Below, piece by piece: positions 127-9,770 of a stretch of 9,770 nt of DNA. The stretch spans positions 1 through 9,770 of the forward strand of contig JBFLYE010000064.1 of assembly GCA_040756715.1 (NCBI GenBank), given 5' to 3'. The position numbers and the translations under genes are program-made. Source of the DNA: JBFLYE01 sp040756715 [NCBI: bacterium] (lineage in GTDB: Bacteria; UBA9089; UBA9088). The first letter of the stretch is position 1, and every line of letters begins with the position of its first letter. The notes below the pieces were generated by a model, which did not search any database, was not told where the DNA came from, and was given only the letters and a program-made list of their open reading frames with translations.

Positions 127-1557
127 TTATATCCCATAATCCTTCCATTTTTGAGAAACAAGGGCTTCTATATCTTTATCCATTATTGCCTCATCTGGCC
201 ATTCCCTTTGCATCCCTCCTTCCTTTGTCTTTTTTGTTCCATCAATTGCCATCTTTGAGCCATAGCCAAAATATGGGCTTGCATGGTCTAATATGTCAAC
301 AGGACCATCCACAAAGAAAATATCCCTCTTGGGAGAAATGTTTGAAAGAACCCTCCATGAGACCTCAGAAAGATTATTAACATCAATATCCTCATCTACC
401 ATAACAAGAACCTTTGTTGTAGAGAGCTGACCAAGCCCCCAAAGGGCTGAGGCAGCCTTTCTTAAAGCACCTGGATATTCCTTTTTTATTGAGACAATCG
501 CAAGGTTATGGAATACACCTTCAATGGGAAGGTTCAGATCAACAATTTCAGGGATAAGCCTTTTTATGAAAGGAAGGAAAATAATGCTACTTGTCTTTGC
601 TATAAAGCAATCCTCCATGGGTGGCTTTCCCACAACCGTGGCAGGGTATATCGGATTTTTCCTATGGGTGATGCAATTTATATGGAATACAGGAAACTTG
701 GAAACTTCCGAGTAATAGCCAGTATGGTCGCCAAATGGGCCTTCATCCCTTGTTTCATCAGGCAAGATGTATCCTTCAAGGACAATCTCTGCCTCAGCAG
801 GAACCTCCAGGTCTATTGTTTTGCATTTTGTCATTTCAACCGGAGCTTTTCTTAAAAATCCAGCAAAGAGCATCTCGTCAAAACCAAAGGGAAGGGGCGA
901 TGTGGCAGAATATATGACCTCAGGTGGACCTCCCAATGCTACAGCTACCTCCATTTTTTTTCCCTCTTTTTTATAGGAAGAATAATGCCTTGCACCATCC
1001 TTTCCTGGATGCCAGTGCATACCCGTTGTCTTCTCATCAAATATTTGCATCCGATACATCCCGCAATTTCTCTTTCCATCTAAATCCTTTGTAAATACAA
1101 GGGGCAAGGTGATAAACCTTCCTCCATCCTTGGGCCATAGCTTAAGATGTGGAAATTTCAATAAATCAGGCTTTTCATCAATTATCTCCTGAGAAGGTGC
1201 ATCTTTTACCATCTTTGGAAAAAATTGGGAGATCTCAAATAGCCTGGGAAGAAATTTTATTTTGTCAATCAAGCCATTTGGCTCTTTAATCTCAAAGAGC
1301 TCATCAATTCGTCTTGAAATTTCAGAAAATTCTCCGATTGCTATTTCCATCCTCCTAAAAGAGCCAAATAGATTTGTTACAATAGGAACATTAGAGCCTT
1401 TTGGGTTTTCAAAATATAATGCCTTTCCATTATTTTTGGAAACCCTATTGGTAATACAGGATACCTCAAGCTCACAATATATCTCTTCTTTTATCCTTAA
1501 AAGCTCCCCCTCTTTTTCAAGCCTTTCTATAAATTCCCTAATATTCTTAAAAGCCAT
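127..1557 (-). CDS. UbiD-family (prenylated-FMN) decarboxylase
   Basis: A 476-residue cytoplasmic protein of full family length. UbiD enzymes (co)decarboxylate aromatic or alpha,beta-unsaturated acids using prenylated FMN made by UbiX. Members serve ubiquinone or menaquinone (MqnL) synthesis or anaerobic aromatic metabolism. Visible hallmarks are the MAFKNIREFIERLEKEGEL start, RNCGMYRMQ near residues 163-171, the MHWHPGKDGARHY segment near 180-192 that contributes metal and cofactor contacts, and the catalytic-site motif DEGPFGDHTGYY at 271-282, followed by the usual PATVVGKPPMED at 305-316. The start matches the family N-terminus. No Shine-Dalgarno precedes it, but a TATGAT hexamer (1566-1571, minus strand) lies only 8 bases upstream, so a leaderless message is possible. 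No ubiX homologue is in the window, so the substrate cannot be assigned. It converges on the partial gene at its 3' side and is separated from the upstream cyclase gene by 122 bases. Confidence 0.93.
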   Translation of the reverse strand: MAFKNIREFIERLEKEGELLRIKEEIYCELEVSCITNRVSKNNGKALYFENPKGSNVPIVTNLFGSFRRMEIAIGEFSEISRRIDELFEIKEPNGLIDKIKFLPRLFEISQFFPKMVKDAPSQEIIDEKPDLLKFPHLKLWPKDGGRFITLPLVFTKDLDGKRNCGMYRMQIFDEKTTGMHWHPGKDGARHYSSYKKEGKKMEVAVALGGPPEVIYSATSPLPFGFDEMLFAGFLRKAPVEMTKCKTIDLEVPAEAEIVLEGYILPDETRDEGPFGDHTGYYSEVSKFPVFHINCITHRKNPIYPATVVGKPPMEDCFIAKTSSIIFLPFIKRLIPEIVDLNLPIEGVFHNLAIVSIKKEYPGALRKAASALWGLGQLSTTKVLVMVDEDIDVNNLSEVSWRVLSNISPKRDIFFVDGPVDILDHASPYFGYGSKMAIDGTKKTKEGGMQREWPDEAIMDKDIEALVSQKWKDYGI

Positions 1558-1644
1558 TTTGAGGAATCATAAGATGCTTATCAAAGTTTTATATCAAACC
1601 CGAAGGATAAAGCAACAAGCAAGGCTCTTCAGTTTTGAATTTTG

Positions 1645-1664
1645 AATTGTAAAAATTTACAATT
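1645..1664. repeat. Perfect 9-bp inverted repeat between the cyclase and ubiD-family genes
   Basis: AATTGTAAA (1645-1653) is followed, after AA, by its exact reverse complement TTTACAATT (1656-1664). It lies in the 122-base gap after the cyclase stop and before the ubiD-family start (both minus strand). The stem is almost purely A/T and is not followed by a clean U-tract in the direction of transcription, so it is a weak candidate for a terminator or a protein-binding site. Just beside it (1633-1648) is a copy of the TTTTGAATTTTGAATTG word that forms the core of the interspersed palindromic elements elsewhere in the window. Confidence 0.4.
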
Positions 1665-1679
1665 TGCAATGGACAATTC

Positions 1680-2825
1680 TTATGCTAAAACAACCCTGTC
1701 CTTCCCCTCCTTTTTTGCTTGGTAAAGGGCTTTATCTGCTGCCTGGATAATCGCCTCTTCTCTCCCTCCATCATCGGGATAGGATGCTATACCAAGGCTT
1801 ATGGTAACAACCTCGGGAAGGCCTGCCATAATGTAAAGCCTTTCCCTTACAAGAGAAAGCATCTTTTCTCCTACAGTAAGCGCCCTCTCCTTTGTTGTCT
1901 GGGGAAGGATGATCACAAATTCCTCTCCTCCATACCTTGCAACCACATCTATCTCCCTTTGAAAAATCTCTTTTGCTATTTGAGAAAGCCCTTTTAAAAC
2001 CTCATCTCCCTTTGGATGACCATAGGTATCATTTATCTTTTTGAAATTATCTATATCAAACATAAGGAGGGAGAAAACAAGGTTATATCTCTCTGATCTC
2101 TTTATCTCCTTATGAAGTGTCTCTTTGAAGTATCGATGGTTGTAAAGGGAGGTTAAGCCATCGGTAATCGCAAGCTCCTCTATCTTTTTATGTAAAAGCC
2201 CATTCTCAATAGCAATAGAAGAATTGTCTGTTAAAAGCTTTATAAGCCTTATGTCGTCAGCAGAAAATGTATTTATCTTTGTATGTGCGACAGACAATAA
2301 ACCAATCAGGCGATCACCAACCTTAAATGGTATTCCCTCAAATGCACCAAGAATGCTTCCCTGTCCTTTATCAGAGACAATCAAAGCAGGGTTATCAATC
2401 TTTACCACAAGATTTTCCTCACCTGGCAGAGAACCAGCAAAGCTTGTATATTTCTTAAGGGTTTTATCTTTAAAAAGTGAAATAAAGGATTCTGTCCTTG
2501 GAAGGGCAAGGTGTATCCTTAACAAAAAAATGTCTTGCTCATAGATCAATATGCCGCAGGCAACATATTCTACCATTTCGGAAAGAAGGGTTACAAGCTC
2601 TGTAATAATTTCATCGTAGTTTAATGTCCTAGAAAGGGTTGTATTTATCTTGTTAATAACCGAAAGCTCATAAAGGCTTTTATCAAGAAGGCTATTTGTA
2701 TTTGCAATAATCTTTTTTCTTGTCTCTCCCCTTTTTATTTCTACTTTAAGCCCTTCTATCTCTTCCTTTAGCCTTTTATTCTCTATTTCTAGCTTCTCTA
2801 AATCCGCACATTCAATTAAATTCAT
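1680..2825 (-). CDS. GAF-domain diguanylate cyclase (GGDEF) with intact I-site
   Basis: A 381-residue soluble protein predicted to make c-di-GMP from two GTP. A charged coiled-coil segment occupies about residues 1-40, a GAF-like sensory domain about 50-210, and a GGDEF domain 215-381. The catalytic signature is present as GGEEF at 299-303, with the metal-binding FDIDNFKKIND at 256-266 and the typical domain entry TDGLTSLYNHRYF at 221-233. The allosteric inhibitory site RxxD is present at the canonical position, R290 and D293, five residues before GGEEF, so product inhibition is expected. The start codon overlaps the stop of the response-regulator gene in an ATGA and has no Shine-Dalgarno of its own, implying translational coupling. 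It is the last gene of the ferredoxin-kinase-regulator operon and the probable output. The GAF ligand is unknown. Confidence 0.93.
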   Translation of the reverse strand: MNLIECADLEKLEIENKRLKEEIEGLKVEIKRGETRKKIIANTNSLLDKSLYELSVINKINTTLSRTLNYDEIITELVTLLSEMVEYVACGILIYEQDIFLLRIHLALPRTESFISLFKDKTLKKYTSFAGSLPGEENLVVKIDNPALIVSDKGQGSILGAFEGIPFKVGDRLIGLLSVAHTKINTFSADDIRLIKLLTDNSSIAIENGLLHKKIEELAITDGLTSLYNHRYFKETLHKEIKRSERYNLVFSLLMFDIDNFKKINDTYGHPKGDEVLKGLSQIAKEIFQREIDVVARYGGEEFVIILPQTTKERALTVGEKMLSLVRERLYIMAGLPEVVTISLGIASYPDDGGREEAIIQAADKALYQAKKEGKDRVVLA

Positions 2826-3184
2826 CCGATAAAAGATTTAACCGCAGAAAGAAGCTCATCTGGTGTATATGGCTTTGTAAGATATTCATCAGAGCCTGTT
2901 TCTTTTCCCCTAAACTTATCTGCCTTAAGGGTCTTTGCGGTAAGCATAACCACAGGAATGTCCTTGTATGATGGGTCGTTTTTAAGCATCCTACATACCT
3001 GATAACCATTCATTTCGGGGATAGTAATATCTAAAAGAATAAGGTCATATCTTTTTTCATAGACCTTCTCCATAGCCTCCAAGCCATCATAGGCAACATC
3101 TACCTCGTAGCCTGCCTCAGAGAGGAATATCCTTTCTGTTTCTACCAGGTCTTCCTCATCTTCAACCAGAAGAATGCTTTTCAT
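2822..3184 (-). CDS. Single-domain response regulator (CheY-like receiver)
   Basis: A 120-residue stand-alone receiver domain with no DNA-binding or enzymatic output domain. The acidic pair is E8-D9 in VEDEED, the phospho-acceptor Asp is D52 in LILLDITIPEMNG, the switch Thr is T82 in MLTA, and the invariant Lys is K104 in YLTKPYTPDEL. It overlaps by ATGA with the histidine kinase upstream and with the diguanylate cyclase downstream, so it is almost certainly the cognate phosphoryl acceptor of that kinase. Lacking its own output domain, it probably acts by protein contact. The co-translated cyclase is the obvious partner, effectively a split version of the fused REC-GGDEF (PleD/WspR-type) arrangement. 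That pairing is inferred from gene order. The first position of the acidic pocket is Glu rather than the commoner Asp, a substitution tolerated in many receivers. Confidence 0.95.
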   Translation of the reverse strand: MKSILLVEDEEDLVETERIFLSEAGYEVDVAYDGLEAMEKVYEKRYDLILLDITIPEMNGYQVCRMLKNDPSYKDIPVVMLTAKTLKADKFRGKETGSDEYLTKPYTPDELLSAVKSFIG

Positions 3185-4944
3185 AGCATAATAAAATCAG
3201 CCTCTAGCTTCTTTAACAAGGATTCCTTGTCTTCTCCATCCTCGGGAAATACAGCTATGCCATAGCTTACATAAATTGTTTGGGGAACATCCTTGAATAA
3301 ATCACCATCAACAAATTCCCTTAGCCTATTTCCTACCTTTTCTGCCTCCTCTTTTCCTGCATGAAGAAGGATAATAAAAAATCCCCTATCTTTATACCTT
3401 ATAACCCTGTCAGATTTGTGAATCTCAGCCTTTATCCTCTCTTCTATATTTGAAAGAAGCCTCCATTTCTCATTTTCACTTTTAATTTTAAGATAATTTT
3501 CAAGCTTAATAAGGATTATGGAAAAATATGCCTCCTCTGTCTTTGCACGGAATATCTCCTCCTCCAATGAGAGATGAAAATATTTATCTATCTTGGGAAG
3601 GGTTACAATAAATTTTGTTCCCTTCCCAATTTCACTTTCTACACTTATCCTTCCCTTGTGCATATTGACAAAGTGCTTAACAATGGTAAGCCCTAAGCCT
3701 GTTCCCTCTATTTGCTCTGCTGTGGTTGCCCTCTGGAATTTGCCGAAGATTCTATCAAGCTCATTAGAGGGAATGCCAACCCCTGTATCAGATACAGAGA
3801 TATAGATATCCTCCTCCTTTGCTTTCCCTGATATTGTTATCTTTCCCTCAGGGGGTGTGAACTTACAAGCATTTGAAAGGAGGTTTGTCAATATATGGGT
3901 AATTCCCTCTTTATCGCCATAGATTTCTGGAAAACCATCCTCAATATCTATTTTTAGTTCTATTTTTTTGGAAAGAAGCACCCCTTTTATGCTTGTTATT
4001 GAATCCTCAATAAGGTTTGGAATGCTTACCACATCCATTCTTAATGAGACCATCCCCGATTCTATCCTTGAAATATCAAGGAGGTTATTGATAACCCTAA
4101 GCAATCTCTCTGTATTTTTTTTAATAATCTCAATAAATCTTGTTTGCTTTTCAGAAAGAAGAGATGCCTCCAATAAGTAAATAGAATTTGTAATAGAGGT
4201 AAGGGGTGTTCTTAACTCATGGGAGACATTGGCAATAAGCTCATTTTTTAATCTTTCTATCTTTTTTTCCTCGGTAATATCCCTGATAATAGCTGCAACA
4301 GCGAAAAAATTTCCTTCTTCATCATCAATCCTGGAGGCAACAATATTGAGCATCTTGGAAGTGCTGCCCATATCTGTTTTCTTTATAAATTCTATCTCTT
4401 CCATAATTGGCATATCTTTTTCAGATGCCCTCTCGATAACGCCGATAATAGAAGCATGCTCTTTTTGAATAAGTATATCGTCTTTTTTTACACCCAGGAG
4501 CCTTTGAGCAACAGGATTTACAAGGAATATCTTTTTCTCCTTATCAATGACAAGAACAGCCTCTCCCATTCCATGAACCATAGATTCAATCTCTTTTTTT
4601 TGAGCAGAAATGAGGCTATGTGCATTATGCCTTTCAAGGAGAACATCGCTTATAAGCCTTGCTACAAATCCTCCCAATACCTCAGTTTCTTCCCTTTTAA
4701 GCTTAAATACCTCCTCAAATACAGAAGGGTCTCCTGAGACATCCAAAACAATGTCTATTGGTTTAGTAAAGAGGGCTTTATAATCAGTATAGATTGGAAT
4801 GTTTAGCTCTTTTGCAGATTTTATCCCTAAAGCATCATCCTTCTTATCAACAACCCCGGTAATTTCAACATTGGGGTCTCTATGAAGGATTTCAAGAAGA
4901 CCTTTTCCCCTCCTTCCCCCTCCTATTATAAGAACCTTTTTCAT
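3181..4944 (-). CDS. Soluble sensor histidine kinase: Rossmann - PAS - HisKA - HATPase - degenerate GGDEF
   Basis: A 587-residue protein with no signal peptide or membrane helix, hence cytoplasmic. Residues 1-105 form a Rossmann-type dinucleotide-binding domain: KKVLIIGGGRRGKGLLEIL with GGGRRG at 8-13, then VVDKKDD at 31-37, where acidic residues often read the ribose of NAD. A PAS domain follows at about 118-225 (MGEAVLVIDKEKKIFLVNP). HisKA carries the phospho-acceptor H242 in NVSHELRTPL. The HATPase has N-box residues near 354-361, DTGVG at 386-390 and GTGLGL at 414-419. Residues about 455-587 match a GGDEF fold, ending with the typical YVSYGIAVFPEDGED, but the signature loop reads YKDRGFF (518-524), so it should be catalytically dead. 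The ATG overlaps the ferredoxin stop (ATGA) and has a GAGGGTGA Shine-Dalgarno inside that gene. NAD(P)(H) sensing is inference from the fold. Confidence 0.92.
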   Translation of the reverse strand: MKKVLIIGGGRRGKGLLEILHRDPNVEITGVVDKKDDALGIKSAKELNIPIYTDYKALFTKPIDIVLDVSGDPSVFEEVFKLKREETEVLGGFVARLISDVLLERHNAHSLISAQKKEIESMVHGMGEAVLVIDKEKKIFLVNPVAQRLLGVKKDDILIQKEHASIIGVIERASEKDMPIMEEIEFIKKTDMGSTSKMLNIVASRIDDEEGNFFAVAAIIRDITEEKKIERLKNELIANVSHELRTPLTSITNSIYLLEASLLSEKQTRFIEIIKKNTERLLRVINNLLDISRIESGMVSLRMDVVSIPNLIEDSITSIKGVLLSKKIELKIDIEDGFPEIYGDKEGITHILTNLLSNACKFTPPEGKITISGKAKEEDIYISVSDTGVGIPSNELDRIFGKFQRATTAEQIEGTGLGLTIVKHFVNMHKGRISVESEIGKGTKFIVTLPKIDKYFHLSLEEEIFRAKTEEAYFSIILIKLENYLKIKSENEKWRLLSNIEERIKAEIHKSDRVIRYKDRGFFIILLHAGKEEAEKVGNRLREFVDGDLFKDVPQTIYVSYGIAVFPEDGEDKESLLKKLEADFIML

Positions 4945-5114
4945 TCACCCTCAATAACCGCACTGGTTGGACAAACCTCTGCACAGGTTCCGCACTCTGT
5001 GCATTTGTCTGGATTTATCCAGTATTTATCGCCCCTATCCTCAATAGCCTCAGCTGGGCATTCCTCTGCACAGGCCCCACATGCTACACATTTATCAGTA
5101 ATAATATAAGCCAT
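4941..5114 (-). CDS. Small 2[4Fe-4S] ferredoxin
   Basis: A 57-residue bacterial (clostridial-type) ferredoxin starting MAYIITDKCVACGACAEECP. Two classic cluster motifs are present: C9, C12, C15, C19 and C38, C41, C44, C48 (CxxCxxCxxxCP twice), each set lending its last Cys to the other cluster. It is a low-potential cytoplasmic electron carrier. A very strong Shine-Dalgarno (GGAGGTGA, 5118-5125) sits just upstream of the ATG, and a promoter candidate lies 40-70 bases upstream. Its stop overlaps the start of the sensor kinase by ATGA, making it the first gene of a four-gene signalling operon. Heading a two-component/c-di-GMP operon is unusual for a ferredoxin. It could supply a redox input to the kinase, or simply share transcription. 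Because it is under 60 codons it is easily missed by gene callers. Confidence 0.95.
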   Translation of the reverse strand: MAYIITDKCVACGACAEECPAEAIEDRGDKYWINPDKCTECGTCAEVCPTSAVIEGE

Positions 5115-5117
5115 TTC

Positions 5118-5125
5118 TCACCTCC
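5118..5125 (-). promoter_or_regulatory. Strong Shine-Dalgarno of the ferredoxin gene
   Basis: GGAGGTGA, 3 bases before the ATG at 5114. It is close to a perfect anti-SD match and by far the best ribosome-binding site in the window, which fits high ferredoxin synthesis. Most other genes here have weak or no SD. Confidence 0.85.
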
Positions 5126-5154
5126 CATATCTTTTTGGCTTAAAATTATTTAAA

Positions 5155-5183
5155 ATTCTCTCATAAAATTTTTCCTTTGTCAA
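5155..5183 (-). promoter_or_regulatory. Candidate sigma70-type promoter of the ferredoxin-kinase-regulator-cyclase operon
   Basis: On the minus strand a perfect TTGACA (5178-5183) is followed by a 17-base spacer and GAGAAT (5155-5160, 4 of 6 to TATAAT, keeping the A2 and T6 positions). Initiation near 5148 would give a leader of about 34 nt ending in the strong Shine-Dalgarno of the ferredoxin. The surrounding 136-base gap between amrS and the ferredoxin gene holds no other gene and no clear terminator for amrS, so readthrough from amrS is possible. Confidence 0.5.
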
Positions 5184-5250
5184 GATTTTTGTTTTGTATT
5201 TTTTGTATGCGTTCTCATCCCATCTGTTTTAAAATTCATTTGTAATAAAG

Positions 5251-6252
5251 TCAAAACACCCCGTCTATCTTTGCTTTGCAATGAGGACAAGCTCCATCCT
5301 TTAAAGCATTCTCAAGCACAGAGAAGCCAAATCTATTGATAATGGGCTCTTTGCATTGATAGCAATATGTATTCTCGCCTGCATCACCGGGTATATTTCC
5401 AGAATAGACATACCTTAAACCAGCCTTTTCTCCAATTTCTCTTGCTTTCTCAATAAAGGAAACGGGTGTGGGAGGAAGGGAAAGCATCTTATAATTTGGA
5501 TGAAACCTTGAGATATGCCACGGCGTTTCTTCTCCAATCTCCTTGATAAACCTTGCAATATCAGAAAGTATTTCAGATGATGTATTTTTCTCTGGAATAA
5601 GGAGGGTGGTTATCTCAACCCAAATTCCAAGCTCCTTCATTAGTCTTATAGATGAAAGGACAGGCTCCTTTCTTGCCTGGCAAAGGGTTTTATAAAAATT
5701 ATCATCTCCCTTTAGGTCAACATTTGCTGCATCAAGGTATGGAGCAATCATCTTTAGGGCTTCAGGGCTCATATATCCATTGGTTACAAAGTTGTTATAA
5801 AGCCCCTCCTTTTTTGCAAGCTTTGCTGTATCAAAGGCATACTCAAAGAATATGGTTGGCTCTGTGTATGTATAGGATATGCTTTTACAACCCTCTGTTT
5901 TTGCCTTTGATACTATCCTTGAAGGAGGCAATTCGCTGCCAAATATTTCATTTTCATCCTTTGCTGCCTGTGAGATTGTCCAATTCTGGCAGAATTTGCA
6001 AGCCAAATTGCATCCAACCGTAGCAATAGAAAGGGAGAAAGAGCCGGGAAGAAAGTGAAAAAATGGCTTTTTCTCAATCGGGTCAATATTGCAGGAGCAA
6101 GCAAGGTTATAGACAAGGCTATAAAGAATGCCATCTTTATTTTCCCTTACCCCGCAAATTCCCCTTTTTCCCTCCTTTATCCTACATCTATGGCTACATA
6201 GCTGGCATTCTACAAGCCCCTCCTTTTTTTCATAAAGAAGTGCCTCTTTCAT
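5251..6252 (-). CDS. amrS: AmmeMemoRadiSam system radical SAM enzyme (AmrS)
   Basis: A 333-residue radical SAM protein of the PflA-like AmrS family, whose natural substrate is not established. An N-terminal Cys-rich segment (VECQLCSHRCRIKEGKRGICGV; C16, C19, C23, C33) is typical of the family. The SAM/4Fe-4S site is CNLACKFC at 81-88 (C81, C85, C88), followed by the conserved SYTYTEPTIFFEY at 126-138, VTNGYMSPEAL at 156-166 and NVDLKG at 177-182. The C-terminal region has two further CxxC pairs (C297/C300 and C322/C325), a rubredoxin-like metal knuckle also seen in family members. The usual partners, the AMMECR1 and Memo domain proteins, are not adjacent in this window. The start matches the family (MKEALLYEKKEG). 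There is no SD, and a terminus of a palindromic element lies 21 bases upstream and may supply the promoter. Confidence 0.92.
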   Translation of the reverse strand: MKEALLYEKKEGLVECQLCSHRCRIKEGKRGICGVRENKDGILYSLVYNLACSCNIDPIEKKPFFHFLPGSFSLSIATVGCNLACKFCQNWTISQAAKDENEIFGSELPPSRIVSKAKTEGCKSISYTYTEPTIFFEYAFDTAKLAKKEGLYNNFVTNGYMSPEALKMIAPYLDAANVDLKGDDNFYKTLCQARKEPVLSSIRLMKELGIWVEITTLLIPEKNTSSEILSDIARFIKEIGEETPWHISRFHPNYKMLSLPPTPVSFIEKAREIGEKAGLRYVYSGNIPGDAGENTYCYQCKEPIINRFGFSVLENALKDGACPHCKAKIDGVF

Positions 6253-6270: not shown

Positions 6271-6300
6271 CCTATAGTATCTTCCCTCACTTAGTGCAAA
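6271..6300 (-). promoter_or_regulatory. Promoter-like hexamers at an element terminus, facing amrS
   Basis: Reading out of the repeat toward amrS, TTTGCA (6295-6300) is followed by an 18-base spacer and TATAGG (6271-6276). Each matches the sigma70 consensus at 4 of 6 positions. The start codon at 6252 lies 18 bases past the -10, giving a predicted leader of about 12 nt. TATA comes from the element and GG from flanking DNA. This is a sequence match only. Confidence 0.3.
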
Positions 6301-6429
6301 AATAGATAGGGTTTATGTTTATTTAAGAAATTTTGAATTCTAAATTTTGAATTTTGGATTGAAAAAGTAAGTTTTTTAATTCAAAATTCAACATTCAAAA
6401 TTTTATAAAGCGTTATGGAATTAACTATA
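6273..6429 (+). mobile_element. MITE-like palindromic element, copy A (157 bp)
   Basis: It begins TATAGTATCTTCC and ends GGAATTAACTATA. The ends form an imperfect terminal inverted repeat that can be written TATAGTnnnTTCCATnAC (copy A has CTC for CAT at one end), with a later CAAAA that is altered at the right end of this copy. The interior contains two arms rich in TTTTGAATTTTGAATT and AATTCAAAATTCAAC, so the whole element is a long imperfect hairpin. It has no coding capacity. Compared with copy B it lacks part of each arm. At the right end TTTTATAAAGCG looks like a deletion between two similar words, TTTTATAAAG and TTTTGTAAAG, still separate in copy B. It fills the gap between the dehydrogenase gene and amrS, and its right end contains the dehydrogenase stop codon. 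A TA target duplication (Tc1/mariner/IS630 style) is compatible with the ends but not proven. Confidence 0.75.
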
Positions 6430-7381
6430 AATTATTTATTATCTCCTCGGTTATTTGGGCAAGAGAATAATTTCCACCCCAATCCTTTGGCAATATCCCT
6501 TTCTCCATTATAGAAGAAATGGCTTTTTCTATTTTTTCTGCACAATTTGCTTTTTTTAGGTATTTAAGCATCATAGAACCAGAAAGGATTGCGGCTATTG
6601 GATTTGCAATATTTAATCCTGCATACTTTGGGCAACTTCCATGAACAGGCTCAAATACAGCAAAGTTATCTCCAATATTTGCCCCTGGTGCTACACCAAG
6701 CCCTCCAATAATGCCAGCACATAGATCTGAGATAATGTCTCCAAATAGGTTTGTGGTTACAATGAGATCAAAATCTTCTGGCTTTTTTACCAATTGCATT
6801 GATGCATTATCTACCAGCCTATCCTCAAATTCAATATCAGGATAAAGGGAGGCAATCTCTTTGGCTGTTTTTAAAAATAAGCCGCAGGTCAGCTTTAGGA
6901 TATTTGCCTTATGGACACAGGTTACCTTCTTCCTATTATTCTTCCTTGCATATTCAAAGGCAAATCTTATTATCCTCTCAGAGCCTTCTTTTGTTATTGT
7001 CCTTATTGCACAAGCAGAGGAGGCTACAGAAAACTCAATCCCTGTGTATAACCCCTCTGTATTCTCACGGATGATTACAATATCTATATTTCCATCAAAT
7101 GATTTTGCTGGCCTAACCCCTGCATAGAGGCTTAATGCCTTTCTTAAAGAGACATTGAGAGAGGTAAATCCATAACCAACTGGTGTTGTTATCGGTCCTT
7201 TAAGACAGATCTTGGTTTTTCTTATGGATTCTAAAATTCCATCTATTGCAGGTGCATTATCCTTAAATTCCAAAGGAATCTCTTCCCATTCTATATCGGC
7301 TCCTGTTGCATCAATAACTCTTTGTGCGGCGCCTATAACCTCAGGCCCTATGCCATCACCCTTTATCAATGTTACCTTCAT
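6425..7381 (-). CDS. Short isocitrate/isopropylmalate dehydrogenase family protein, probably isocitrate dehydrogenase
   Basis: A 318-residue beta-decarboxylating dehydrogenase from the ATG at 7381 (MKVTLIKGDGIGPEV, the family N-terminus). An in-frame ATG at 7408 would add nine residues but lies upstream of the likely -10. Substrate-side motifs favour isocitrate over isopropylmalate: FTSLNVSLRKALSLYAGVRP (72-91) and RENTEGLYTGIE (105-116). The metal-binding aspartates lie in LFGDIISDLCAG (212-223), and EPVHGSCPKYAGLNIANP (244-261) binds the cofactor. Lys252-Tyr253 in that loop match the Lys-Tyr pair that favours NADP in E. coli-type isocitrate dehydrogenases, whereas NAD enzymes usually have Asp-Ile there. 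It is much shorter than E. coli Icd (416) and resembles the compact NAD-IDH/homoisocitrate class. The stop codon lies within the end of repeat copy A. Homoisocitrate or tartrate dehydrogenase activity cannot be excluded. Confidence 0.88.
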   Translation of the reverse strand: MKVTLIKGDGIGPEVIGAAQRVIDATGADIEWEEIPLEFKDNAPAIDGILESIRKTKICLKGPITTPVGYGFTSLNVSLRKALSLYAGVRPAKSFDGNIDIVIIRENTEGLYTGIEFSVASSACAIRTITKEGSERIIRFAFEYARKNNRKKVTCVHKANILKLTCGLFLKTAKEIASLYPDIEFEDRLVDNASMQLVKKPEDFDLIVTTNLFGDIISDLCAGIIGGLGVAPGANIGDNFAVFEPVHGSCPKYAGLNIANPIAAILSGSMMLKYLKKANCAEKIEKAISSIMEKGILPKDWGGNYSLAQITEEIINNL

Positions 7382-8732: not shown

Positions 8733-8830
8733 TGGACATACTTAAGGGGTATATTTTTTACTGGTGCACGGGTGACTATTTACTTATAGTTAATTCCATA
8801 ACGCTTTACAAAATGTATGTGTTTAGATAA
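8732..8830 (+). pseudogene. Short TGATG-coupled frame running into repeat copy B; possible truncated gene
   Basis: An ATG overlaps the DUF72 stop in TGATG, a common translational-coupling arrangement, and opens a 32-codon frame. The first 18 codons (MDILKGYIFYWCTGDYLL) precede the element. From 8785 the frame enters the terminal inverted repeat of copy B and stops at 8828-8830. It may be the remnant of a third operon gene cut by the insertion, or chance. I recognise no family. Confidence 0.2.
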
Positions 8831-9025
8831 TCTTAAGGAAAACTTTATAAAATTATGAATTTTGAATGTTGAATTTTGAATTAAAAGGGAAAAAATTTTA
8901 TAAAACTTAAACCTTCAATTCAAAATTCAAAATTTAGAATTCAAAATTTCTTAAAAGGTGGATGAATTTTTAACAGATAAACACAACCCTATCTATTTTT
9001 GCACTAAGTAATGGAAGATACTATA
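8785..9025 (-). mobile_element. MITE-like palindromic element, copy B (241 bp, inverted, most complete)
   Basis: This is the reverse-complement orientation of copies A and C, with the same ends: TATAGTTAATTCC at 8785 and GGAAGATACTATA ending at 9025. It is the longest copy and keeps both arms. Outside the AATTCAAAATT core the arms also share TGTGTTTA, so the inverted repeat extends well past the termini, and the whole unit is a near-complete imperfect palindrome with an AT-rich apex. It has no meaningful ORF. It occupies most of the 385-base gap between the DUF72 gene (plus) and the QueD homologue (minus, convergent). The remainder of that gap is the short frame before it and a run of AAATGCAAAA-type words after it; I see no canonical terminator. 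Confidence 0.75.
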
Positions 9026-9089
9026 ACTTTGGCAAAAATAGAATTTTAAGAATGAAAAAACTAAAAATGCAAACCTACATACAAAAATT

Positions 9090-9641: not shown

Positions 9642-9671
9642 ACTATAGTATCTTCCATTACTTAGTGCAAA
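9642..9671 (-). promoter_or_regulatory. Promoter-like hexamers at an element terminus, facing queD
   Basis: The same arrangement as at the amrS-facing terminus: TTTGCA (9666-9671), an 18-base spacer, and TATAGT (9642-9647, 5 of 6). It would give a queD leader of about 160 nt that includes the 9505-9554 inverted repeat. This is a sequence match only. Confidence 0.3.
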
Positions 9672-9770
9672 AATAGTATTTAAGAAATTTTGAATTCTAA
9701 ATTTTGAATTTTGAATTGAAAAAGGTTAAGTTTTATAAAATTTTTTCCCTTTTAATTCAAAATTCAACAT
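9644..9770 (+). mobile_element. MITE-like palindromic element, copy C (5' part, cut by window end)
   Basis: It starts TATAGTATCTTCCATTAC as in copies A and B and continues through TTAGTGCAAAAATAG. It then jumps to TATTTAAGAAATTTTGAATT, lacking the GGGTTGTGTTTATCTG segment kept in copy B. The remaining core matches copy B closely, including TTTTATAAAATTTTTTCCC and AATTCAAAATTCAACAT at the window edge. The right terminus is outside the window. Confidence 0.7.

Follow-up and report, generated by a model that had tools for sequence, protein, structure and literature searches.

Here, we describe a ferredoxin gene directly followed by the gene for a sensor histidine kinase, a pair kept in all five members of its bacterial order that carry the kinase in full. 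The kinase begins with a Rossmann-fold module that, judging from sequence, several other classes of signaling protein share as an exchangeable input domain. The pair heads a four-gene cluster on contig JBFLYE010000064.1 (assembly GCA_040756715.1; GTDB lineage Bacteria; UBA9089; UBA9088), which we analyze over its whole length of 9,770 nucleotides (the window). We give a probability of about 0.5 to the reading that the cluster encodes a cytosolic sensor kinase for dinucleotide (redox) state that is co-produced with the main ferredoxin and drives a receiver and diguanylate cyclase split over two proteins. The genes, the parts of the kinase and a promoter-like site are as follows.

4941-5114, minus strand: ferredoxin, 57 amino acids, clostridial 2[4Fe-4S] type (NCBIfam FdxA_fam)
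3181-4944, minus strand: sensor histidine kinase, 587 amino acids, Rossmann - PAS - HisKA - HATPase_c - degenerate GGDEF (Pfam, motifs)
4615-4944, minus strand: Rossmann input module at the N terminus of the kinase, approximately residues 1-110 (Pfam DapB_N at residues 3-82, profiles, model)
4270-4593, minus strand: PAS domain of the kinase, residues 118-225 (Pfam; nearest solved relatives by sequence are WalK PAS domains)
4054-4248, minus strand: HisKA phospho-acceptor domain of the kinase, residues 233-297, with His242 in HELRTP (Pfam, motif)
3592-3918, minus strand: HATPase_c domain of the kinase, residues 343-451, with N, G1 and G2 boxes (Pfam, motif)
3208-3582, minus strand: C-terminal degenerate GGDEF domain of the kinase, residues 455-579 (Pfam; signature lost)
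2822-3184, minus strand: single-domain receiver, 120 amino acids (Pfam, motifs)
1680-2825, minus strand: predicted diguanylate cyclase, 381 amino acids, GAF (weak) - GGDEF (Pfam, motifs)
5155-5183, minus strand: promoter-like site (extended -10) ahead of the ferredoxin; such sites are, as a class, not above chance

In the mechanism we favor, a general clostridial-type ferredoxin would be transcribed together with a cytosolic sensor kinase, whose N-terminal Rossmann module would bind a dinucleotide, for which nicotinamide adenine dinucleotide (NAD(H)) is our leading candidate, and would catalyze no reaction. Ligand occupancy or redox state would be relayed through a helix and the PAS domain to the HisKA/HATPase core, which would autophosphorylate at His242. 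In the window's family the phosphate would then pass to Asp52 of the lone receiver, and the phosphorylated receiver would control the GAF-GGDEF cyclase by contact, so that the two proteins would act as a split REC-GAF-GGDEF regulator with cyclic diguanylate (c-di-GMP) as its output. The ferredoxin would be co-expressed for a shared role in low-potential electron balance, which seems more likely than a role as sensor subunit. We favor this reading because ferredoxin and kinase adjoin in all five order members amid differing flanks (hisD in one family, an AmmeMemoSam radical SAM gene in the window); because the module combines an NAD-type modeled fold with a conserved GxG, and nadC lies just after the kinase gene in one order member; and because kinase, receiver and cyclase carry their motifs, receiver and cyclase follow the kinase in 3/3 genomes of the window's family, fused homologues exist, and POR_N is present in 4/5 order genomes.

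The conserved unit is the ferredoxin with the kinase. Our sample of relatives comprised 61 genomes, nine of which match the kinase at E 1e-60 and five of which hold a full-length orthologue: the window's own genome (G000), G001 and G002, which form one family, and G003 and G004, which form a second. All five are drafts (78-97% complete), and absences from them carry caution. Identity to the window kinase is 89% in G001, 66% in G002, 55% in G003 and 56% in G004, and in every case the ferredoxin lies directly upstream, with a 4-nt overlap in G000 and G001 and a spacing of 0 nt in the other three; this is the sole junction that is tight in every relative. Upstream, hisD lies ahead of the ferredoxin in G003 and G004, the same-strand neighbor in the window is the radical SAM gene of an AmmeMemoSam system, and the contig ends in G001 and G002. 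Downstream, receiver and cyclase follow the kinase in all three genomes of the window's family; nadC (quinolinate phosphoribosyltransferase, NAD biosynthesis) lies 83 bp after the kinase on the same strand in G004 (L021 1515-2375); and in G003 the contig stops 244 bp past the kinase, with an opposite-strand open reading frame without a Pfam match there. A passenger operon, in which a common promoter serves a housekeeping ferredoxin and a kinase that have nothing to do with each other functionally, would fit a ferredoxin that is general, downstream genes that differ between families, and a link seen in five genomes of one lineage that may be a single event. Yet the pair persists at about 55% kinase identity while the flanking genes have been exchanged between families, which we take to be unusual for an unselected pair, and we consider this explanation somewhat unlikely.

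The ferredoxin itself looks like the phylum's ordinary, general ferredoxin and is not obviously dedicated to the kinase. It is a short stand-alone protein with two CxxCxxCxxxC motifs, as expected of the clostridial 2[4Fe-4S] type, and scores 81.5 bits against NCBIfam NF058577 (FdxA_fam; cut-off 65). When 19 genomes from the phylum were searched at E 1e-5, it was the only ferredoxin-sized match in G000, G001, G002 and G004, while G003 has a second, a 96-amino-acid open frame with 43% identity. A short, closely related homologue (identity 56-67%, E no worse than 1.3e-16) is present in 8 of the 14 other phylum genomes; six of the eight have it in the neighborhood of frr and uppS (G007, G008, G009, G012, G013 and G015, those of G009 and G012 standing at a contig end where only one of the two genes is visible), and G005 and G006 have it elsewhere. 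In the order, uppS was found in all five genomes, and no ferredoxin-motif open reading frame lies near it in the flanks available. From its place at uppS elsewhere in the phylum and its absence there in the order, we infer that the ordinary ferredoxin moved in front of the kinase. It is likely needed for metabolism in the order, given that POR_N, a pyruvate:ferredoxin oxidoreductase-type family, is present in four of the five genomes.

These results bear directly on the preliminary description of this DNA, which had cast the ferredoxin as an input component of a dedicated circuit. On that reading it would dock on the kinase as a dedicated electron-input part and report its own redox state. A tight junction in all five order members, where other neighbors vary between families, speaks for such a part, but the protein is a general ferredoxin that has its place at frr/uppS in 6 of 8 other genomes examined and is missing from uppS in all five order genomes. 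Moreover, none of the 50 proteins outside the order that carry the kinase's Rossmann module (below) has an adjacent ferredoxin-motif open reading frame in the flank available (upstream at least 200 bp in 48 and at least 1000 bp in 43); at locus L114, a cut open reading frame with an Fe-S motif lies about 1.1 kb from the module gene on the other strand. Since the five kinase orthologues share no invariant cysteine, any ferredoxin signal would need protein contact. We therefore do not follow the preliminary description here and regard a dedicated input role as distinctly unlikely.

The window kinase has the H-box histidine and the HATPase_c N, G1 and G2 boxes of a HisKA-type sensor histidine kinase, for which autophosphorylation and phosphotransfer are predicted. 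It has the PAS-HisKA-HATPase core in common with PAS histidine kinases of the WalK, PnpS and PhoR types, but differs from them in its Rossmann input and its C-terminal degenerate GGDEF domain, and among the best 25 of its 99 NCBIfam matches it scores under the curated cut-offs of these families. The preliminary description had recognized a Rossmann-PAS-histidine kinase, and Pfam bears out these domains; it had missed the fifth, C-terminal one. This domain scores 42.0 bits as a GGDEF-family member in Pfam (cut-off 23.8) and lacks the GG[DE]EF signature of an active cyclase, reading KDRGF in the window and [KE]D[KR]GF across the five orthologues, in which a D.GFFIILL core is invariant. Because the signature is lost and the core is nonetheless invariant, the domain is probably regulatory or structural. 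His163 of the PAS domain is likewise invariant in the five orthologues, and a haem-binding PAS is conceivable, but the best sequence matches of known structure are WalK PAS domains and not haem sensors.

The input module models as an NAD-type Rossmann fold, and our best guess is that it binds a nucleotide, most simply NAD(H). An AlphaFold2 model of the isolated module, made from only four sequences, has a predicted local distance difference score (pLDDT) of 88.1 and a predicted template modeling score (pTM) of 0.80, and comprises four strands of three or more residues, one shorter strand and a long last helix (92-117) that leads towards the PAS domain. Searched against the PDB, a 28-row profile of the module gives 14 matches with E of 0.01 or less, the best at 5.4e-6. 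Most are NAD-binding enzymes; acylating acetaldehyde dehydrogenases come first, followed by other oxidoreductases including Gfo/Idh/MocA proteins and by one formyltransferase, with Rex last (0.0096). Comparison of the fold with Foldseek and VIA-align places acetaldehyde dehydrogenase at Z 12.3 and GenD2 with NAD at Z 11.8, and has Rex in the top 50 (Z 10.5, 2.2 Å over 87 residues). The N-terminal domains of the Gfo/Idh/MocA proteins and of acylating acetaldehyde dehydrogenase (DmpF) are the closest in both profile and fold; unlike theirs, the module runs straight into a signaling part, and no dehydrogenase catalytic domain was matched after it in the module proteins scanned with Pfam. Rex is a winged-helix repressor whose Rossmann domain reads NADH/NAD+, and it resembles the module in that a Rossmann domain leads to an output. 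The module, by contrast, is joined to PAS-kinase, GGDEF, HD-GYP, sigma-54, V4R or chemoreceptor outputs. The first Rossmann strand opens the window kinase, which has no Pfam match to the N-terminal winged helix that marks the Rex family.

The glycine loop of the window kinase reads GGGRRG, in keeping with the GxGxxG loop of Rossmann folds. In a set of 49 modules, 47 retain GxG, 47 Gly71 and 48 Ala44; the third loop glycine is present in 27, with Ala, Cys or Ser in its place in 21, and an acidic residue stands at position 33, the end of strand 2, in 30. The variation at these last two positions, and the fact that no ligand was seen, would suit a module that serves only as a platform for dimerization or partner docking and binds no nucleotide. 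Against this, the near-complete retention of GxG, Gly71 and Ala44 across six output classes suggests a kept pocket, and we consider a pure docking platform improbable.

A profile of the five kinase N termini matched many signaling proteins outside the order. Collected with the 28-row profile at E 1e-12 or better, as a sample and not a census, the module is present in at least 55 distinct proteins, 50 of them outside the order and some of them near-copies from one genus; six further hits, being second domain matches in proteins already counted, were left out. Their outputs are 14 histidine kinases (five from the window's order), 24 GGDEF proteins (at least two of which, L045 and L048, also have an HD domain), five sigma-54 activators, three HD-GYP proteins (one also with GGDEF), three V4R proteins, one chemoreceptor and five unassigned or cut (L050, L113, L115, L116 and L133, of which L113 is unassigned despite a Pfam scan and L116 is possibly an enzyme); the classes were assigned by Pfam in 30 cases, by alignment to the window kinase in four and by a motif alone in 17, and the HisKA match of L108 is under the cut-off. 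We did not count as the module the matches that the first profile gave at E 1e-3 in 95 of 386 genomes, many of which are probably ordinary dehydrogenases. A few enzymes may also be among the matches at 1e-8 seen in 29 of 335 genomes of a diverse set. In another phylum, the module is single-copy in 17 of 24 genomes, in 16 of the 17 on a GGDEF protein (by Pfam or motif) and in one on a cut protein; in the window's own phylum it is found on kinases, HD-GYP and V4R proteins. In G049, the gene for a sigma-54 member has a same-strand pyruvate:ferredoxin oxidoreductase beta-type gene upstream of it. In the chemoreceptor-type MCPsignal protein (L051 991-1869, in G277), the module makes up the N-terminal part, without other matched domains.

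A tree was built of 49 module domains, from which six then-unassigned proteins were omitted (L145 was classed as a kinase afterwards). The best tree requires at least 11 output changes among six classes, where the minimum possible is 5 and shuffles average 22.5; 15 of its 46 internal branches are left open, and the chemoreceptor sits on a long one. The well-supported branches alone force two changes each for GGDEF, kinase and sigma-54 outputs, and are compatible with a single origin for HD-GYP or V4R. Among the Pfam and NCBIfam matches listed (for the kinase, the best 25 of 99 in NCBIfam), none is a model specific to the module; those present are general Rossmann models, often below cut-off. 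Among the papers listed by searches of open-access literature, outside which most subscription journals lie, none has a title or abstract opening that describes the module or the operon, and novelty is unproven. More tentatively, this may be an unnamed, widespread input module for NADH/NAD+ that has been swapped among six output classes, with the order's kinase and main ferredoxin reading the NADH and ferredoxin pools jointly. Repressors such as Rex are regarded as the chief means by which bacteria sense NADH/NAD+; if our proposal is true, many bacterial lineages would connect the dinucleotide pool directly to phosphorylation, c-di-GMP and sigma-54 control. The ferredoxin link might then let an uncultured group read its low-potential electron pool as well.

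There is good evidence at the sequence level that the receiver and cyclase work together, because they are fused in other genomes and adjacent here. Fused REC-GAF-GGDEF homologues of 485 amino acids are present in four genomes of the same phylum (G014, G016, G017 and G018; Pfam was run on one), with receiver parts 47-50% identical to the window receiver and remainders 36-40% identical to the window cyclase. In the loci compared, their receiver parts are the closest homologues of the window receiver outside the family, along with the lone receivers of G006 and G011 (47 and 53% identity), each encoded between genes for a HATPase_c and a GAF-GGDEF protein; as these loci were gathered through the cyclase, a better receiver match elsewhere is possible. 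The window receiver has its motifs intact (DE, LLDI with Asp52, LTA and TKP), and thus the acidic residues, Asp, Thr and Lys of a single-domain response regulator, with no output domain. Its second-best NCBIfam match, below cut-off, is the PleD family, but regulators of the PleD/WspR type fuse receiver and cyclase, which in the window are two separate proteins. The preliminary description's GAF-GGDEF cyclase stands as regards the GGDEF domain, which has GGEEF at 299 and an RxxD inhibitory site (I-site), REID, at 290, so that the gene at 1680-2825 is a predicted diguanylate cyclase; the GAF domain appears as weak Pfam matches under their cut-offs.

Some neighbors of these genes deserve mention in their own right. 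The receiver-GAF-GGDEF pair of G006 lies next to ribBA, as seemingly, by eye, does that of G011, and ribD is upstream of a Rossmann kinase in G006 (loci L043 227-1324 and L086 2712-3914 in G006; L087 in G011); a flavin link of the G006 and G011 loci is possible. In G001 and G002, ftsZ follows the cyclase (L018 6609-7688; L019 3608-4690), and a T2SSE-family ATPase comes next in G002. This proximity may reflect a tie between c-di-GMP output and cell division, or simply a shared locus.

Several observations weigh against the reading we favor. Neither sister-family genome has receiver and cyclase next to the kinase, which must consequently have another target there, and a 169-bp gap separates kinase and receiver in G001, a member of the window's own genus. 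The neighborhood of nadC and kinase is found in one genome only (G004), and the ferredoxin-kinase link may go back to a single event in one lineage. Formyltransferases stand in the same lists as the NAD-binding enzymes (profile E 0.0067; fold Z about 11), a shared fold alone does not establish function, and 19 of 49 modules have another residue in place of the acidic one. The AlphaFold2 model of the full-length kinase is too poor for use (pLDDT 63.1, pTM 0.32). Lastly, a search for PilZ proteins as c-di-GMP effectors found none in the five order genomes (5 of 14 control genomes matched).

Taking both sides together, we think it likely that, in the window's family, a sensor kinase of dinucleotide type feeds c-di-GMP output. 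The preliminary description had gone further and proposed a dedicated four-gene circuit reporting redox or dinucleotide state to c-di-GMP. Its expectation that ferredoxin and kinase would be neighbors in relatives is borne out within the order (5/5), whereas the four genes stand together in one family only (3/3 against 0/2), and we reject the circuit as an ancient unit on that ground. Similarly, the NAD-type fold model, the receiver and cyclase motifs and the fused homologues agree with its path from dinucleotide state to c-di-GMP, while the ferredoxin as input to that path has become a minority reading.

The window is the whole of contig C64 of a 1.55-Mb draft genome (218 contigs; completeness 95.98%). 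The four open reading frames, their coordinates and the three ATGA overlaps (4941-4944, 3181-3184 and 2822-2825) proved as first described, all on the minus strand, and we infer that the four genes are co-transcribed; among the relatives compared, ATGA at three junctions in a row is found in the window genome alone. The strong promoter and Shine-Dalgarno sequence reported ahead of the ferredoxin hold up in part. A purine-rich ribosome-binding site precedes the ferredoxin ATG, and the site at 5183-5155 (TTGACA-17-GAGAAT, 10/12 consensus positions) is a plausible ferredoxin promoter, but promoter-like sites in the region 1400-5500 are no more frequent than chance (13 versus 11.8 +/- 3.3 in shuffles). 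A UbiD-family gene, named menaquinone-biosynthesis decarboxylase by NCBIfam, lies 122 bp downstream of the cyclase, and an Rfam scan of the window gave no RNA family at the gathering threshold. A scan of viral contigs with the Rossmann alignment found no relative, which, as such peptide patterns work at close range, is weak evidence against a phage or mobile origin; a likewise close-range scan of genome contigs gave three order members and a weak match in Metabacillus (26% over residues 3-75).

Repeats mark the edges of the window. The first 127 bases (1-127) are identical to contig C120, and a repeat of about 245 bp at 8784-9030, with more than 20 near-identical copies in the draft genome, recurs in part at the right-hand end (9644-9770); the assembly was probably broken by repeats at the contig ends. 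A diverged inverted copy lies near 6273-6430, and the sequence is suggestive of a miniature repeat of mobile or palindromic kind.

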